From NCBI RefSeq assembly GCF_005780165.1, contig NZ_VAUV01000002.1:310001-374000 (forward strand): a DNA stretch of 64,000 nt, given 5' to 3'. The translations under genes were made by a program, and so were the position numbers. Positions 45,251 to 52,248 of this stretch are shown here, piece by piece (position 1 is the stretch's first letter; every line of letters starts with the position of its first letter). The notes under the pieces are model-generated. The model ran no database searches. It saw only the letters and a program-made list of their open reading frames with translations, and was not told where the DNA came from. Origin of the DNA: Phragmitibacter flavus. Its GTDB lineage: Bacteria > Verrucomicrobiota > Verrucomicrobiia > Verrucomicrobiales > Verrucomicrobiaceae.

Positions 45251-46312
45251 CTACTTGGCGGTTTCGCCGCCGCCGGTTTCGAGTGGGATGAAGTCATTTA
45301 CCTGCCAGACGGCAGGTTGACCTTTGCGCTGTAGGGCGAGCCAGTTGAGGGCGGCTTGATGGATGAGTTCGTGGGCGCCTTCGAAGATGGTGATGCGGGT
45401 GTTTTGATGTTGGCTGACAAACTTGGGTTGCCACGGTCCGTAGACGGGATCAGGAGCCGCAGGTTTCCATGTGGGAGGGAGGGATTGTGTCTCGTAATAG
45501 GAAGCGATGTCGGCTTCCCTTAATTGGGGACCGGACTTGCCGATCACGGCGTTGTAGGCGTTGAGGGAATGGGTGAAGGGGACGCTGCCGAGTCGGCCAT
45601 CGTGGATGCCGTGGGCGATGTCGAGGGGGACAGACTGAGCTTGGTGCAGCCAAGTGATGGGTGAGCGTTTCAGGGCGGCGGATTTGCGGACTTCGTCGGT
45701 GGCTGGTGATCCGCCTAGGGCGGCTTCGATGTCGAGGGCATACTTGCCGGGTTTGCTGCTGCGGGTGTGGAAGCTGTGCCAGGCGTTGATGTCGCTGATG
45801 CCACACCAGGCGCTGACACCGGCCCAGATTTCAGGATGGCGTCCGGCCATGAGCTGGGACATGTGGGCCCCGCCGCTGCCGCCAATGAGGTAGATGCGGT
45901 CGTGGTCGATGCCGGTTTGTTGTTTGGCCCAAGCAACGGCTTCGACGATGTCTTGAACGGCGCGGTCGGAGCCCATGGCTTCGGGGGTGTTGTTGGGACC
46001 ACGGAAGTGGGGATGGATGAAGGCCCAACCTTGGGCGATGCACCATTCGGCAAAGATGGAGTCGCCGCCAGCGGAGGCGTAGGTGCTGCTCCAGGTGTGA
46101 AGGCCCACCAGGAGAGGTTTTTTTGTGGTGGAAGCGGGTGCATACCACATGGCGGGTTGCAGAGTGTTGTCGCTGCTGGGGATTTCGACTTTGCTGATTT
46201 CGGCGGGCCAGGTCCGTTGGGCAAGGTTTCGTTTGATGAGTGGCGATTGCGCGTGGAGATGCTCGCAGGCGACAATTAGCAGGAGGACGAGTGTGATGGA
46301 GCGGCTCAACAT
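45251..46312 (-). CDS. Exported alpha/beta hydrolase (S9 peptidase/esterase-like)
   Basis: The start is ATG 46312 (MLSRSITLVLLLIVACEHLHAQ), which gives a signal peptide; a 31-residue upstream extension hides it and is rejected. The mature protein of about 330 residues has an alpha/beta-hydrolase fold. The nucleophile elbow is GGSGGAHM, and a likely acid is in GIHDGRLGSVP. A likely His is in EGAHELIHQAAL. HTWSSTYASAGGDS and HPHFRGPNN resemble prolyl-oligopeptidase-type esterases. The substrate is unknown, with a peptide or polysaccharide ester plausible. It is divergent from the hydrolase-methyltransferase gene, with 128 bases between. Confidence 0.85.
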   Translation of the reverse strand: MLSRSITLVLLLIVACEHLHAQSPLIKRNLAQRTWPAEISKVEIPSSDNTLQPAMWYAPASTTKKPLLVGLHTWSSTYASAGGDSIFAEWCIAQGWAFIHPHFRGPNNTPEAMGSDRAVQDIVEAVAWAKQQTGIDHDRIYLIGGSGGAHMSQLMAGRHPEIWAGVSAWCGISDINAWHSFHTRSSKPGKYALDIEAALGGSPATDEVRKSAALKRSPITWLHQAQSVPLDIAHGIHDGRLGSVPFTHSLNAYNAVIGKSGPQLREADIASYYETQSLPPTWKPAAPDPVYGPWQPKFVSQHQNTRITIFEGAHELIHQAALNWLALQRKGQPAVWQVNDFIPLETGGGETAK

Positions 46313-46440
46313 GGCGGTAGTTTGGATGGAGGCGGGGGTCGATGTCAACCGATGGAATGCGTTGCGGACTGGAAGAAGTTGACGCAAGATTCGTTCGGTA
46401 GTCACATCGCGAAAGGTTTTTACCTGAATCCCTCACTCCT

Positions 46441-48174
46441 ATGAATCTCGAGATTTCCCGTCAGACTTTCACCGCTGAAGATGGTGAGACCTTGCAATAC
46501 AAAAGCTGGTTGCCGCACAGCGGGTTCAAGCAGTCGATGGTGCTGTTGCATCGGGGGCATGAACATGCGGATCGATGGGATGAAGTGGTGCCGGGATTGG
46601 CATTGGAGGAGACTGCGATTTTCGCGTGGGAGGCTCGGGGGCATGGTCAGTCGCCGGGCAAACGAGGGCATGCAAACGGGTTCATGGCTTATGTGCGGGA
46701 TCTGGAGTCGTTCATGCTGCATTTGCAGACGACGTATGGTGTGGAGCGCGAGCGGGTTGCTTTGATCGCGCACAGTGTGGGCGCAGTGGTGGCGGCGACC
46801 TGGGTGCATGACTACGCGCCACCATTGGCGGCATTGGTTTTGGCGACACCGGCGTTTGAAGTGAATTTGATGGTGCCGGGGGCGCTGACGGGGATTCGAT
46901 TGATGCAGAAGGTGAAGCCGGACAGTGTCATCAAAAGTTATGTGCGCGGACATTGGCTGACTCGTGATTTGGAGCAGCAAAAGATTTATGATGCGGATAC
47001 GTCGATCTCCAAAGATATCTCGGCGCGGGTGTTGGTGGATTTGTTTGATACGGCCAAGCGGGTGGTGGATGACGCGGCGGTGATGGAGACGCCGATGATG
47101 TTGTTGTCGGCGGGGGATGATCAGGTGGTGTTGAATTCGGCATTGAGCCGTTTTCTTTTCAACTATGGAGGGGACTGCACTAAGCACGTGCATTTGCCAG
47201 GGGCACGGCATGCGATTTTTCATGATGTGTGTCGGAATGAGGTGGTGAGTGCGGTGCGGGAATTTGTCGCGGAGAAGTTTGCTGAGGAACGGGTAATGGG
47301 AGTGGCGGTGGAGAACCGGTTCACGAGGAGCGAGTATGAGGAGTTGCAGAAGCCGTTGAAGCCGGTTTCGTTGAAGGCGGCGAACTATGAGTTCCAGAAG
47401 GGCAGCATGCAGACACTTGGCAAGCTGAGCAAGGGAATCAAACTCGGTTGGGAGGTGGGTTTTGATTCGGGGCAATCGCTGGATTATGTTTATGAAAACA
47501 AGGCTCAGGGAGTTGGCCCGATCGGTAAGTTGATCGATCGAGGTTATCTCGATGCGATTGGTTGGAAGGGGATTCGTCAACGTCGGGGCATGATGCGGAA
47601 GGGATTGGATATGGCCTTGGAGAAGACGGCGGAAGCGGGGTTGCCGAGGACGCTGGTGGACATCGCGGGTGGCGGTGGACGTTATCTGATGGATGTGCTG
47701 AAGGAGCGCACGGATGGGTTGCAGGTGTTGTGTCGCGATTGGAGTGAGGGGGCGCTTGAGGTGGGGCGGTCGACGGCGAAGGAGTGGGGATTGGAGGAGC
47801 GGATTCGCTTTGAGAAAGGGGATGCGTTTGATGAGGAGTCGCTGGCGCAGATCCAGCCTGCGCCTGCGGTGGCGGTGGTGTCAGGGTTGTATGAGTTGTT
47901 TCCGAGCAATGAGTTGTTGCAGCGTTCGTTGCGAGGGTTGAATCGGGCGGTGCCGGTGGGGGGATGGCTTGTTTATACGAATCAGCCGTGGCATCCACAG
48001 GTGGAAATGATTGCGCGCGTGTTAGTGAATCGTGATGGCAAACCGTGGATCATGCGTCGTCGTCCGCAGGGGGAGATGGATGCCTTGGTGAGTGATGCGG
48101 GATTTGAAAAGGTCACGCAGTGGACGGATGATTTTGGCATCTTCACGGTGGCGGTGGCGAAGAAGGTGGGGTGA
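46441..48174 (+). CDS. Bifunctional alpha/beta hydrolase - SAM-dependent methyltransferase
   Basis: This 577-residue fusion has an N-terminal monoacylglycerol-lipase-like hydrolase (residues 1-290). It shows LLHRGHEHADRW, WEARGHGQSPGKRG, the nucleophile Ser112 in AHSVGA and a His in GARHAIFHD. A C-terminal class I methyltransferase (residues about 340-577) has the SAM motif VDIAGGGGRY near residue 405, then CRDWSEGAL. This architecture is known from proteobacterial clusters next to a PAP2-phosphatase fusion. The next gene, 10 bases on, is exactly that. A role in making or remodelling a methylated phospholipid is inferred. No SD or signal peptide is evident. Confidence 0.9.
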   Translation: MNLEISRQTFTAEDGETLQYKSWLPHSGFKQSMVLLHRGHEHADRWDEVVPGLALEETAIFAWEARGHGQSPGKRGHANGFMAYVRDLESFMLHLQTTYGVERERVALIAHSVGAVVAATWVHDYAPPLAALVLATPAFEVNLMVPGALTGIRLMQKVKPDSVIKSYVRGHWLTRDLEQQKIYDADTSISKDISARVLVDLFDTAKRVVDDAAVMETPMMLLSAGDDQVVLNSALSRFLFNYGGDCTKHVHLPGARHAIFHDVCRNEVVSAVREFVAEKFAEERVMGVAVENRFTRSEYEELQKPLKPVSLKAANYEFQKGSMQTLGKLSKGIKLGWEVGFDSGQSLDYVYENKAQGVGPIGKLIDRGYLDAIGWKGIRQRRGMMRKGLDMALEKTAEAGLPRTLVDIAGGGGRYLMDVLKERTDGLQVLCRDWSEGALEVGRSTAKEWGLEERIRFEKGDAFDEESLAQIQPAPAVAVVSGLYELFPSNELLQRSLRGLNRAVPVGGWLVYTNQPWHPQVEMIARVLVNRDGKPWIMRRRPQGEMDALVSDAGFEKVTQWTDDFGIFTVAVAKKVG

Positions 48175-48184
48175 TGATATTGAT

Positions 48185-49531
48185 ATGGAAGCGTTGCCGA
48201 AAGAGAAGGGGGTGTTCTGGCGTGCGACGGTGACTTCGGCGTTGCTGGGCGCGTGGTTCTTTCTTGTTTATGGGACCTGCAACTGGATCACGTCGAAGCG
48301 GGAGGATGTGGGAACGTGGTATTTTGAGTGGGAGAAGTTGATCCCGTTTGTTCCGGAGTTTGTGGTGCCTTATTATTCGCTCGACTTGTTTTTTGTCGGG
48401 GCGTTTTTTCTTTGTCGGTCGCGCAGAGAGATGTGGACGTTGTCGAAGCGGGTGTTTGTGGTGATTGTGGCTTCGGGGATTTGTTTTTTGTTGTTTCCTT
48501 TGCAGCTGGGAATGGATCGTCCGATGCCGGATGGAGGATGGACGGTGCCGTTGTTCAAGTTATTGCATGCGCAGGATTTGCCTTATAATTTGGCACCATC
48601 GTTGCATATCAGTTTGCGGTCGATTTTCTGGGTGACTTATGGTCGGCACTTACGGGGTTGGGTGAGGTCGGTAACGAAGATATGGTTCATTTTGATTGGG
48701 GTCTCGACCTTGTTGGTTTGGCAGCATCATTTCATGGATGTGGTGACGGGATTCTTGATGGGTTGGTTGGTGATGGCGCTGATCCCGGATCGGGAGACAC
48801 AGCCGGGTCCGCTGGGTTGGATGGGCAAGGTGACGCCGAGGCATCGTCAACTGGCGGGTCGGTATGGTCTTGCGGGGTTGCTGTTTGGATTGCTGGCGTT
48901 GCCGGGTGGGGCGTTTCTATGGTTTGGGTGGCCAGCGATTGCGTTGGGCGTGGTGGGGTTGAGTTATGCCACGGCGAATCCGCGTTGGATGCAGAAAAGT
49001 TCGGGGACATTGAGTCCGGCGTCGGAGTGGATGTTATTGCCGATGATGTTGGTCACGCAAGGTTGGCAGCGTCGTTGGATGAAGCGTGAGATGGGGTCGG
49101 GGGAGGTGGATGAGAATGTTTGGTTTGGGCGTCGGCCTGACGGCAAAAGGGCGGAGCATTTGTTGAAAGCGGGTTGTGTGGCGGTGCTGGATTTGACGGC
49201 GGAGTTTAATGCGCCGGTGCGGTTGCGGGAGAGGGTGGTGTATCGGAATCTGGGGTGGCTTGATCTGACGCATCCGAGTGTGGAGGATTTAAAAGAGGCG
49301 GTGGCGTTTATTGAGGAGCAGAGGGATCGTGGGATGGTTTATGTGCATTGCCAGTTGGGCTTGATGCGCAGTGCGAGTGTGGCAGCAGCATGGTTGATTC
49401 ACTCGGGTGAAGTGGCCAGTGTGGAGGAGGCGGTGGGGCGGATCAGGGAGTTGGAGCCGATGGCGGTGTTGCATGGGGATGCGCTGGACGCGCTTGAGCA
49501 ACTGCATCGAGAGAAGGCGGACAAAAGCTGA
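48185..49531 (+). CDS. PAP2 phosphatase - dual-specificity phosphatase fusion membrane protein
   Basis: The start is ATG 48185 (MEALPKEKG), 10 bases after the previous gene; upstream extension overlaps it. The 448-residue protein has about eight hydrophobic segments. The PAP2-type lipid phosphatase half shows APSLHISLRS and WQHHFMDVVTGF, the second and third catalytic motifs. The C-terminal cytosolic domain has a cysteine phosphatase loop, HCQLGLMRS, with Cys389. ENVWFGRRPDGKRAEHLL and AVLDLTAEF are typical of dual-specificity phosphatases acting on phospholipids. With the preceding gene it likely dephosphorylates a lipid intermediate such as phosphatidylglycerol phosphate. Confidence 0.9.
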   Translation: MEALPKEKGVFWRATVTSALLGAWFFLVYGTCNWITSKREDVGTWYFEWEKLIPFVPEFVVPYYSLDLFFVGAFFLCRSRREMWTLSKRVFVVIVASGICFLLFPLQLGMDRPMPDGGWTVPLFKLLHAQDLPYNLAPSLHISLRSIFWVTYGRHLRGWVRSVTKIWFILIGVSTLLVWQHHFMDVVTGFLMGWLVMALIPDRETQPGPLGWMGKVTPRHRQLAGRYGLAGLLFGLLALPGGAFLWFGWPAIALGVVGLSYATANPRWMQKSSGTLSPASEWMLLPMMLVTQGWQRRWMKREMGSGEVDENVWFGRRPDGKRAEHLLKAGCVAVLDLTAEFNAPVRLRERVVYRNLGWLDLTHPSVEDLKEAVAFIEEQRDRGMVYVHCQLGLMRSASVAAAWLIHSGEVASVEEAVGRIRELEPMAVLHGDALDALEQLHREKADKS

Positions 49532-49640
49532 GAAACTTTGGGTTTCATCATCTTCTCATCATGTTGGTGTGGGAGGTTGGGGGCGTGATCAATGATGATT
49601 CACGAAAACAAAAACTCTAAAAACTACCAACTTGAAGACC

Positions 49641-50129
49641 ATGAAAACGAAATTCCAATATCCCTTTCTTGCTGTGTCCTTGACCGTGTTGACTGCTGCC
49701 TTTGCGGGCACAGCCTGGGCGGATGATGACGATTTGAAACTGAGCCAAACTCCTGAGGCGGTGCAGGCGACGGTGCGGGACAATCTGCGCGGTGGCAAGG
49801 TGGATGACATTGATCGCGTCCAACTTGAGGGCCGCACGATGTATAAGGTGGAGGTGGATCTTCCTGATCGGAAGGGGGGCGATGACGATGATCTGAAGCT
49901 TTACATTGATGCGGATGGGAAGCTGCTGAAGTCGCGTGAAGACATGGCGTTCAGTGCGTTGCCTGCAGCGGTGCAAACAGCGGCTCGAAACCAGGGTGGC
50001 GAGATCGAAGATGTGGAGCGGGTGTCGGCTAACGGAACCGTGTCCTATGAGGTGGAGTTCGATGATCCTGATTTGACCATCGTGTTCTCGGAGAGCGGCG
50101 AGGTGATGAGCCGCAAGTCGGATGATTGA
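49641..50129 (+). CDS. Periplasmic PepSY-like domain protein
   Basis: The start is ATG 49641 (MKTKFQYPFLAVSL), with an in-frame TTG nine bases earlier. The 162-residue protein has a signal peptide (cleavage after AWA). Two PepSY-like beta-alpha repeats follow: TPEAVQATVRDNLRGGKVDDIDRVQLEGRTMYKVEVDL and LPAAVQTAARNQGGEIEDVERVSANGTVSYEVEF. It is rich in Asp and may bind cations. It precedes a response regulator and sensor kinase on the same strand, a common context in which the periplasmic protein is the target or modulator of the two-component system. Confidence 0.85.
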   Translation: MKTKFQYPFLAVSLTVLTAAFAGTAWADDDDLKLSQTPEAVQATVRDNLRGGKVDDIDRVQLEGRTMYKVEVDLPDRKGGDDDDLKLYIDADGKLLKSREDMAFSALPAAVQTAARNQGGEIEDVERVSANGTVSYEVEFDDPDLTIVFSESGEVMSRKSDD

Positions 50130-50194
50130 GACCACTTAAGGCTTCGAATCCGTATCCGCTAGTCCGTATTCTTAACCTTAACGAGTGACTGATT

Positions 50195-50863
50195 GTGCGA
50201 GTGCTATTGATTGAAGATTCACGTCGAATTCGCACCACCGTGGCCAAGGCGCTTAGTCGTCTTGGCCATGCGGTGGATGAGGCCGCAGATGGAGAGGAAG
50301 GGGAGGAGTTTGCCACGGTGAATGAATATGATGTGGTGGTGCTGGACTTGATGTTGCCAGGTCAGCACGGGCTGATGCTGTTGGAAAAATGGCGCAAGGC
50401 GGGGAATGATACGCCGGTGTTGTTGTTGACGGCGATGGATGGGATTGAGGATCGGGTGCGGGGATTGGAGATGGGGGCGGATGATTATTTGGTGAAGCCT
50501 TTTGCGATTGCGGAGCTGGCGGCGCGGCTGGAGGTCTTGGTGCGTCGGAAGTTTGGGAGGGCGGAATCGGTGGTGAAGATTGGACCGCTGGAGGTCAATT
50601 TTGTGGCGAAGCAGGTGATGCGTGATGGGGAGTCGATTGTATTGACGGCGCGCGAGTTTGCGTTGTTTGAGTGTCTGGCAAAGAGGCCGGGGCAGGTATT
50701 GAGCAGGGAACAGATTGAGGCGCAATTGTATTCGGAATCGGACAGTCCGTTGAGCAATGCGGTGGATGCGGCGGTGTATGCGCTTCGACGGAAGTTGAGT
50801 CCGAATGGAGCGGCGAATTTGATTCACACACGGCGTGGACTGGGGTATGTGCTGGAGCCATGA
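50195..50863 (+). CDS. OmpR/PhoB-family response regulator
   Basis: The start is GTG 50195 (MRVLLIEDSRRIR). The 222-residue protein has a receiver domain with acidic pocket residues Glu7 and Asp8, phosphoacceptor Asp51 (VVVLDLMLPG), Thr79 in LLLTAMD and Lys101 in DDYLVKPF. A winged-helix effector follows (LTAREFALFECLAKRPGQVLSREQIE, then DAAVYALRRKLSPNGAANLIHTRRGLGYVL). It overlaps the kinase gene by 4 bases, so the two are translationally coupled. The target may be the PepSY gene just upstream. Confidence 0.96.
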   Translation: MRVLLIEDSRRIRTTVAKALSRLGHAVDEAADGEEGEEFATVNEYDVVVLDLMLPGQHGLMLLEKWRKAGNDTPVLLLTAMDGIEDRVRGLEMGADDYLVKPFAIAELAARLEVLVRRKFGRAESVVKIGPLEVNFVAKQVMRDGESIVLTAREFALFECLAKRPGQVLSREQIEAQLYSESDSPLSNAVDAAVYALRRKLSPNGAANLIHTRRGLGYVLEP

Positions 50864-52248
50864 AGTCGATTAGAGGTCAGCTGACATTTGCCCTTTGTCT
50901 GCTGGCAGCAGTGTTGCTGCCGTTGGCGGGGCTGGCGATTTATTGGACGGAGCGAGGGTTGTTGCTGGCGCAGTTTGATGAGTCTTTGAAGGCGAGGGCC
51001 GAGGTGTTGATCTCGGGGATTGAGGTGGATGATGGGGAACTGGAAATGGATTCGGAGTTGGAGGAGTTTGTGGGAATTGGATCGGGGGTGGGCAGTGATG
51101 TGTTTGCCGTTTTTGATTCGTCGGGAAGGGTGTTGTTGAGTTCGGGGAGCGGGACGCGCAAAGCGCAGTGGGAGGTGCCGTCGAATGTGGGAGAGGGCGG
51201 AGTTTATCAGTTTTTTAAGCTGGCCGATGGTCGGGAGATGCGGGGCATGTGGCGGACTTTTTTGCCGGAAGATGAGGATGGAGAGATGGGGATGATGGTG
51301 TTGCTGGTGGCGAGTCCGGGCGCGGCATTGGTGGGAACGTTGGGAACACTGGCAACGGTGATGACGGTGAGCGGAGGGGTGGGTTTGCTGGTGGCGGTGC
51401 TGGTGTTGCAGATGGTGTTGAAGCGAGGGTTTCGATCGCTGGAGAGGATGGGGACGAAGGTGCAGCAGATGAAGGTGGGTCAACCGGGACAGCAGTTGGA
51501 TTTGGAGCCGTTGCCAGTGGAGTTGCGGGGAATGGGGGCGAAGGTGAATGAGTTGTTGGAGAGGGTGGAGGTTTCGTTGGCGAGGGAGCGGAGGTTTAGC
51601 AGTCATGCGGCGCATGAGTTGCGGACGCCGCTGGCGGAGTTGCGGGCGATGGGGGAATTGATCGCGACTTGGCCGGAGGAGCGCACGAAGGAGCGAAGTG
51701 AGGAGATGATGGAGGTGGTGCGGGAGATGGAGGTGTTGTTGGACAAGTTGTCGTTGCTGGCGAGGGCGGATGCGGGGGCGCAGTCGGTGAAGATTGAGCG
51801 GGTGAATTTGCGGGAGTTGGTGGAATCGACGGTGGACCGGCATCGTGCGAAGGCGGAGCAGCGAAAGTTGTTGATGAAGATGGAGTGGCAGGACGAGGAG
51901 ATGGAGACGGATGCGGTTTTGTATGGGGCGATCCTTAATAATTTGGTGGGAAATGCGGTGAGCCATGCACCGATGGGTTCGGCGGTGAGCATTGAGGTTT
52001 CGGCGGAGAGGTTGGTGGTGGGCAATCCGGCACCAGCGTTGATGGAAACGGATCTCTCGATGTTGTTTGAGCGGTTTTGGAGGAAGAACACGGCGCGCAC
52101 CGATGGAGCGCATTCGGGGTTGGGGTTGTCGATTGTAAAGGCGTGTGCGGAGTTGTTGGGCGGGAGATGTGAAGCGGTGTTGGAGGAAGGTGGGGATTTG
52201 AAATTGATGGTGAGGTGGAAGAATGGAAATGAAAAAGGCAGGTCTTGA
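50860..52248 (+). CDS. Sensor histidine kinase
   Basis: The 462-residue membrane kinase has two transmembrane segments: residues about 8-27 (LTFALCLLAAVLLPLAGLAIYW) and about 148-186. They frame an acidic periplasmic domain of about 120 residues, followed by a HAMP-like linker. The phosphoacceptor His252 is in SSHAAHELRTPLAE. The ATPase domain has NNLVGNAVSHAP (N box), the F box FERFWRK and the G2 box HSGLGLSIVK. In place of the usual DxGxG G1 box there is VVGNPAPAL, so that box is weak. Its stop codon lies inside a terminator hairpin used by the opposite-strand DoxX gene. Confidence 0.95.
   Translation: MKSIRGQLTFALCLLAAVLLPLAGLAIYWTERGLLLAQFDESLKARAEVLISGIEVDDGELEMDSELEEFVGIGSGVGSDVFAVFDSSGRVLLSSGSGTRKAQWEVPSNVGEGGVYQFFKLADGREMRGMWRTFLPEDEDGEMGMMVLLVASPGAALVGTLGTLATVMTVSGGVGLLVAVLVLQMVLKRGFRSLERMGTKVQQMKVGQPGQQLDLEPLPVELRGMGAKVNELLERVEVSLARERRFSSHAAHELRTPLAELRAMGELIATWPEERTKERSEEMMEVVREMEVLLDKLSLLARADAGAQSVKIERVNLRELVESTVDRHRAKAEQRKLLMKMEWQDEEMETDAVLYGAILNNLVGNAVSHAPMGSAVSIEVSAERLVVGNPAPALMETDLSMLFERFWRKNTARTDGAHSGLGLSIVKACAELLGGRCEAVLEEGGDLKLMVRWKNGNEKGRS

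Follow-up and report, generated by a model that had tools for sequence, protein, structure and literature searches.

A ynbC-ynbD gene pair in Phragmitibacter flavus and a candidate head-group phospholipid pathway for the ynb system

The gene pair and its domains

The window analyzed here is a 64,000-nucleotide stretch of the Phragmitibacter flavus genome (G000:C2:310001-374000, where G000 is a nearly complete 5.9 Mb assembly in 44 contigs). It contains two adjacent plus-strand genes that are almost certainly relatives of Escherichia coli ynbC and ynbD and as such belong to the ynb system, which is already known without an explained function and of which this pair is a further instance. The first gene (46441..48174) encodes a 577-residue fusion of a hydrolase and an S-adenosylmethionine (SAM)-dependent methyltransferase, matches Hydrolase_4 and Methyltransf_20 in Pfam, and shares 41% identity with YnbC of E. 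coli. The second (48185..49531) encodes 448 residues from its ATG, comprising a PAP2 domain, a transmembrane hairpin and a dual-specificity phosphatase (DSP), and a tblastn search with this protein recovered E. coli ynbD at 33% identity over 93% of its length. Exactly 10 bases (48175-48184) separate the two genes. A sequence-only reading of this DNA had described four domains of a lipid-related type in two fusions 10 bases apart; the Pfam matches and coordinates bear out that arrangement and the lipid-type assignment is supported, while the identity of the pair with E. coli ynbCD had gone unnoticed. AlphaFold models of both proteins are confident, with mean pLDDT values of 94.3 for YnbC and 92.7 for YnbD.

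The YnbC hydrolase domain (PF12146, E 2e-52; residues 30-262, 46528..47226, plus strand) is monoglyceride-lipase-like, and its closest structures are monoacylglycerol lipases (PDB profile E 6e-30; Foldseek 6eic, TMt 0.88). Its catalytic triad is encoded at 46774-46776 (S112), 47119-47121 (D227) and 47209-47211 (H257), all on the plus strand, and among aligned YnbC sequences S112 and D227 are each present in 37/37 and H257 in 36/37. The methyltransferase domain (PF12147, E 7e-115; residues 272-575, 47254..48165, plus strand) has an invariant SAM loop, D407-x-A-x-G-x-G-R-Y, together with D433 and D461-A-F, with D407, G411, G413 and D433 kept in all 37 sequences. YnbC is 40-60% identical to its relatives over the full length, the nearest named ones among the matches listed being from Brevifollis and Prosthecobacter at 60%.

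In YnbD, the PAP2 membrane domain (residues 10-200, 48212..48784, plus strand) carries R112-P113, P138-S-L-H141 and H181-x3-D185. The match of this protein to PF01569 is weak and by itself under the cut-off (E 0.003); the call is backed by its relatives, of which 44/44 match PAP2 with H141, H181 and D185 invariant. The domain has the RP, P-S-x-H and H-x3-D core in common with PgpB-type lipid phosphatases, but it does not fit their full signature of K-x6-RP, PSGH and SR-x5-H-x3-D. The motif-1 Lys position is occupied by Pro105 and the motif-3 Arg position (175) by Thr, Val, Ala or Pro, such that neither phosphatase residue is found in any of the 44 sequences. Sphingomyelin synthases and Aur1, which are head-group transferases, likewise depart from the phosphatase motifs. 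PAP2_3 matches 43 of the 44 proteins and PAP2_C matches 18, with weak E-values; in five genomes, that of the window not among them, YnbD scores above the cut-off for PAP2_3. This resemblance of the YnbD PAP2 domain to head-group transferases supports transferase activity but does not prove it. When YnbD was used as a Foldseek query the DSP half filled all of the top rows, so the PAP2 type is judged from sequence only; a PAP2 profile searched against the PDB gave weak matches only, to phospholipid phosphatase 1 and to YodM/PgpB.

Two further transmembrane helices (residues 218-263, 48836..48973, plus strand; AlphaFold2 model, with an NF009025 match over residues 245-444) lead into the DSP domain, giving eight membrane helices ahead of it in the model. 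The DSP domain itself (DSPc, PF00782, E 8e-11; residues 302-444, 49088..49516, plus strand) is PTPMT1-like, the nearest structures being Tk-PTP/ShufPTP and PTPMT1 (3rgo, E 6e-18) and the Foldseek matches again Tk-PTP and PTPMT1. The catalytic residues D360 (49262-49264, plus strand), C389 (49349-49351) and R395 (49367-49369) are kept in 51/51 sequences, which thus have both the Cys-x5-Arg motif and the general-acid Asp. By a positive-inside count, the Lys plus Arg density of the YnbD loops is 0.136 for those predicted inside and 0.057 for those predicted outside. Because the density is higher in the inside loops, the modeled topology should place the DSP domain in the cytosol and the PAP2 site on the external or periplasmic side, that is, on opposite faces of the membrane. 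A similar transmembrane hairpin plus DSP occurs in another lipid context at L016:559-2193, where this same phosphatase module is fused to a YegS-type diacylglycerol/lipid kinase (PRK12361/DAGK_cat).

PTPMT1 is the mitochondrial phosphatidylglycerophosphate (PGP) phosphatase, and the resemblance of the DSP domain to it raises the question of whether YnbD is a spare PGP phosphatase for phosphatidylglycerol synthesis. We regard this as highly improbable and reject it on published negative complementation, in that an E. coli strain with conditional PGP phosphatase was not rescued by plasmid-borne ynbD (PMC7413402, Table 2).

Co-conservation and partner genes

The annotated gene order in E. coli is pdxI, ynbA, ynbB, ynbC, ynbD, azoR, and of 5426 complete E. 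coli genomes, 4242 carry the operon over no less than 80% of its length. A scan with a YnbC alignment across one genome per species (84,980 species) yielded at least 563 relatives, from which 80 loci were kept. Across these and further loci, 78 had enough flanking sequence, and at those ynbD was found 73 times (in some cases as a DSP-only form), ynbA 69 times, ynbB 66 times, an acyltransferase gene 59 times and a gene for a small membrane protein 42 times. Among full-length pairs from several phyla with refined start sites, 72/72 have ynbD after ynbC in the same orientation, with a median spacing of 1 base and many pairs overlapping by 4. Since these multi-phylum loci share both strand and near-zero spacing, the adjacency of ynbC and ynbD is not due to chance. 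In a 289-genome sample of the phylum, full-length YnbC occurs in 10 genomes and full-length YnbD in 7, every one of the latter adjoining YnbC. The sequence-only reading had let its pairing of the genes depend on co-conservation in relatives, and this neighborhood comparison found them co-conserved. It had also named acyltransferase, cytidylyltransferase and CDP-alcohol transferase genes beside proteobacterial relatives; these are confirmed, as the pair on Citrobacter, Rhizobium, Burkholderia and Shinella replicons neighbors genes for a CDP-alcohol transferase, a CdsA-like cytidylyltransferase, an acyltransferase and the small membrane protein. The latter, which follows proteobacterial ynbD, has no Pfam match, and a hidden Markov model of it found no match beside the verrucomicrobial loci.

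Several loci vary in composition. At L051:7204-7884, L052:9282-10031 and L054:7881-8555 the YnbD-like protein consists of the transmembrane hairpin and DSP without PAP2, and at L051 it is separated from ynbC by a sulfotransferase gene. A planctomycete locus with ynbD missing has a second O-methyltransferase gene after ynbC (L152:10695-11672). No consistent substitute gene was found at the YnbD-less loci.

The genes that accompany the pair elsewhere are present in the window's genome, on a different contig. A ynbA-acyltransferase-ynbB cluster occupies G000:C5:199699-202113, all on the minus strand, with ynbA at 201343-202113, the acyltransferase gene (lysophospholipid acyltransferase, LPLAT) at 200695-201303 and ynbB at 199699-200652, separated by gaps of 39 and 42 bases. 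The earlier statement that partner genes are missing locally therefore holds, none lying beside ynbCD in the window, but the view that the two genes form a complete small pathway is not supported, given the three partner genes at the second locus, and is rejected. It is also countered by the phylum sample, in which every genome with YnbC has YnbA and YnbB as well. YnbA-type proteins are found in 28 of the 289 genomes, YnbB-type proteins in 28 and both in 27, and all 10 YnbC genomes fall within these 27 (hypergeometric P of 1e-35 for YnbA with YnbB and 9e-12 for YnbC inside the 27, treating genomes as independent and ignoring relatedness). The system is divided between two contigs in the window's genome, and G255 is split in the same way; G185, G188 and G197 have the acyltransferase gene and ynbB together with ynbA apart. 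In G232, a relative from the same family but another genus, the acyltransferase gene, ynbB, ynbA, ynbC and ynbD form one cluster (L045:8446-13685). The remaining 17 of the 27 YnbA plus YnbB genomes lack YnbC, the acyltransferase gene being mostly adjacent, and no recurrent gene replacing ynbCD was seen in them. We read the ynb system as a three-gene core with an optional ynbCD extension.

That ynbCD is optional would also suit a role in turnover or salvage, in which a lipid made by YnbA and YnbB is broken down by the lipase-like domain together with both phosphatases and the methyltransferase caps a released part. The monoacylglycerol lipase fold of the YnbC hydrolase and the fusion of the DSP module to lipid kinases argue for such a role. 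Set against this, a hydrolase-fused methyltransferase is more typical of product tailoring, and the PAP2 motifs of YnbD are transferase-like and not phosphatase-like. We consider turnover unlikely, if worth keeping in view.

Around the window pair itself, no convincing promoter or terminator was found. Directly upstream, open reading frame (ORF) inspection indicates a divergent gene (45251-46405, minus strand) for a secreted alpha/beta-hydrolase-like protein, which is not part of the conserved neighborhood as seen. Directly downstream (49632-52248, plus strand), ORF inspection likewise indicates a small exported Asp-rich protein, then a response regulator and a sensor kinase. A viral or mobile origin of the pair was rejected, as viral contigs gave no match. 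Plasmid copies of ynbCD relatives do occur in Citrobacter, Burkholderia, Shinella and Rhizobium, with whole ynb clusters on a Citrobacter IncF plasmid (L004) and on a 19-kb Burkholderia plasmid beside bcs cellulose genes (L242). A 385-kb record of E. coli KE48 labeled as a plasmid (L003) carries pdxI-ynbABCD-azoR-hrpA-ydcF, genes that are chromosomal elsewhere, and is possibly a chromosome fragment or a mislabeled replicon.

The altered active site of YnbA

YnbA is most similar to phosphatidylinositol phosphate (PIP) synthases (PDB 6h53, E 2e-19), and 31/31 YnbA proteins match the NCBIfam archaetidylinositol-phosphate and PIP synthase models, in each case under the model cut-off. CDP-alcohol phosphotransferases are expected to have the signature D-x2-D-G-x2-A-R-x8-G-x3-D-x3-D. 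All 31 aligned YnbA sequences instead have N..DG..A.........G...N...D with an additional Asp four residues further, so that the first and third signature Asp are Asn in every YnbA with an intact motif, those of core-only genomes included. By comparison, ordinary members of the family in the same genomes retain all four Asp in 27/27 cases. The first and third signature Asp are metal ligands in PIP-synthase structures. The YnbA of the window's genome (L135:9347-10114, equivalent to G000:C5:201343-202113, minus strand) is divergent and matches no Pfam family, yet it has the shared YnbA signature. At Lysobacter/Xanthomonas-type loci a second YnbA-like gene, with the pattern S/N..DG..A..G..N/S..D, precedes the acyltransferase gene and ynbB (L170:14033-14773 and L179:14021-14773; similar at L173, L187 and L189). 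YnbB has a CdsA-type signature, S-x2-K-R-x4-K-D followed by H-G-G-x2-D-R-x-D, at 77 of 81 loci, the window's genome included.

One reading of the substitutions, which we offer as doubtful, is that the chemistry of YnbA departs from that of other CDP-alcohol transferases in using a different nucleophile, such as a sugar or polyol phosphate through its phosphate, and that the ynb system makes an undescribed class of lipid. If so, the lipid could be something like a pyrophosphoryl- or phospho-glycolipid bearing a methyl group, it would span the Proteobacteria, Verrucomicrobiota, Planctomycetota and Acidobacteriota, and YnbD would be a single protein with two head-group enzymes on opposite membrane faces.

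A related explanation is that the system makes pyrophosphoryl glycolipids like MPIase, with YnbB (together with YnbA) joining a sugar phosphate to CDP-diacylglycerol and YnbC and YnbD trimming, methylating or recycling the product. The YnbA Asp-to-Asn pair would fit this scheme by reducing negative charge at the site of a phosphate nucleophile. MPIase levels in E. coli rise when YnbB is over-produced, and YnbB is no substitute for CdsA in the synthesis of bulk phospholipid (PMC6362211); a later paper describes YnbB as MPIase-dedicated, according to its title as cited in PMC12871917. However, a ynbB knockout leaves MPIase almost unchanged (PMC6362211), and phosphoglyceride-linked enterobacterial common antigen does not need ynbB (PMC8609368). 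In the same work the pyrophosphate step is credited to CdsA and YnbB themselves, leaving YnbA without a role. Moreover, MPIase is not known from Verrucomicrobiota. We judge an MPIase-like product to be improbable.

The PIP-synthase-like YnbA and the Aur1-like PAP2 domain of YnbD could also be taken to indicate an inositol-lipid pathway. We rejected this as very unlikely because the window's genome, 9 of the 10 YnbC genomes and the E. coli control all lack myo-inositol-phosphate synthase; the synthase was found in one YnbC genome, G013. Inositol made by the organism itself is thus probably not the head group.

A candidate pathway and its known counterparts

The reading that we prefer, though we would stop short of calling it probable, is that ynb encodes a dedicated pathway for a head-group phospholipid with a full reaction scheme, of which ynbCD provides one half. 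In this scheme the acyltransferase would form phosphatidic acid, YnbB would convert it into CDP-diacylglycerol as a pool private to the pathway, and YnbA, as a PIP-synthase-type variant, would place the phosphatidyl group on a polar head group that carries a phosphate. This head-group phosphate would then be stripped off in the cytosol by the DSP domain of YnbD, in the manner of PTPMT1 or the Bacteroides PIP phosphatase. On the outer face, the Aur1/sphingomyelin-synthase-like PAP2 domain may transfer or hydrolyze off the phospho-head group with release of diacylglycerol, and cytosolic YnbC may trim acyl chains or released acylglycerol and methylate the lipid or its head group. The gene identities, their co-conservation, the split loci, the conserved residues and the predicted folds are what the analysis shows; the reaction order, the sidedness and the PAP2 transferase activity are what we infer. 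The sequence-only reading had named a phospholipid head group or an acylglycerol as the substrate; the former is plausible, while the only ground for the latter is the hydrolase fold. Its statement that the product is undefined agrees with the literature searched, in which no product description was found; domain-name queries for the operon gave no match, and text matches to ynbC or ynbD were mostly abbreviations for yeast media.

Published data on the E. coli proteins fit a dedicated side pathway and not bulk phospholipid synthesis. YnbD has no ascribed function and its gene can be deleted (PMC7413402), and the YnbB results are those described above. Several observations nevertheless weigh against our scheme. 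Because two metal-ligand Asp of YnbA are Asn, ordinary CDP-alcohol transfer by this enzyme is not assured. The PAP2 step is not universal, given that YnbD is absent or without PAP2 at the ynbC loci L051, L052, L053, L147, L152, L166 and L217. The absence of inositol-phosphate synthase means that the inositol analogy is not literal. Finally, E. coli YnbD replaced neither PGP phosphatase nor undecaprenyl pyrophosphate (C55-PP) phosphatase in vivo (PMC7413402).

As annotation the pair is ordinary. The actionable results are the core-plus-extension structure, which gives a defined gene set, the predicted two-sidedness of YnbD, and the invariant and unexplained exchange of two Asp for Asn within the textbook active-site motif of YnbA, along with an ordered and falsifiable pathway. 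They concern genes present in most E. coli genomes, with ynbC relatives in hundreds of other species, and no function is known for YnbC or YnbD. The proposals are testable in E. coli K-12, for which deletion mutants exist.

The closest known system is E. coli ynbABCD, which has the same two fusions in the same order at near-zero spacing, with 41% identity for YnbC and 33-35% for YnbD. The E. coli proteins are annotated as "bifunctional alpha/beta hydrolase/class I SAM-dependent methyltransferase" and "phosphatase PAP2/dual specificity phosphatase". They differ in context, as the E. coli operon has no acyltransferase gene alongside, whereas in the window's genome ynbCD is detached from ynbA-LPLAT-ynbB. 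Among single enzymes, monoacylglycerol lipases (Rv0183, human MGLL) have the fold and Ser-Asp-His triad in common with the YnbC hydrolase; unlike them, YnbC has an invariant HRGHEH region and a C-terminal methyltransferase, and identity is ~22%. The YnbD DSP domain has the fold, Cys-x5-Arg motif and general-acid Asp of PTPMT1 and Tk-PTP but carries eight fused transmembrane helices. Bacteroides BT1522-1526, which produces inositol phosphoceramide and is the closest parallel to have been worked out, differs in that its phosphatase is PgpA-type and not a DSP, in having no hydrolase-methyltransferase, and in having its own inositol-phosphate synthase, which the window's genome lacks. Nonetheless, the logic of the two systems is alike, in that the PIP-synthase-like enzyme, the head-group phosphatase, which acts on PIP in Bacteroides, and the Aur1-like transferase that make up one pathway in BT1522-1526 (PMC9246714, PMC8791184) have candidate counterparts in ynb.

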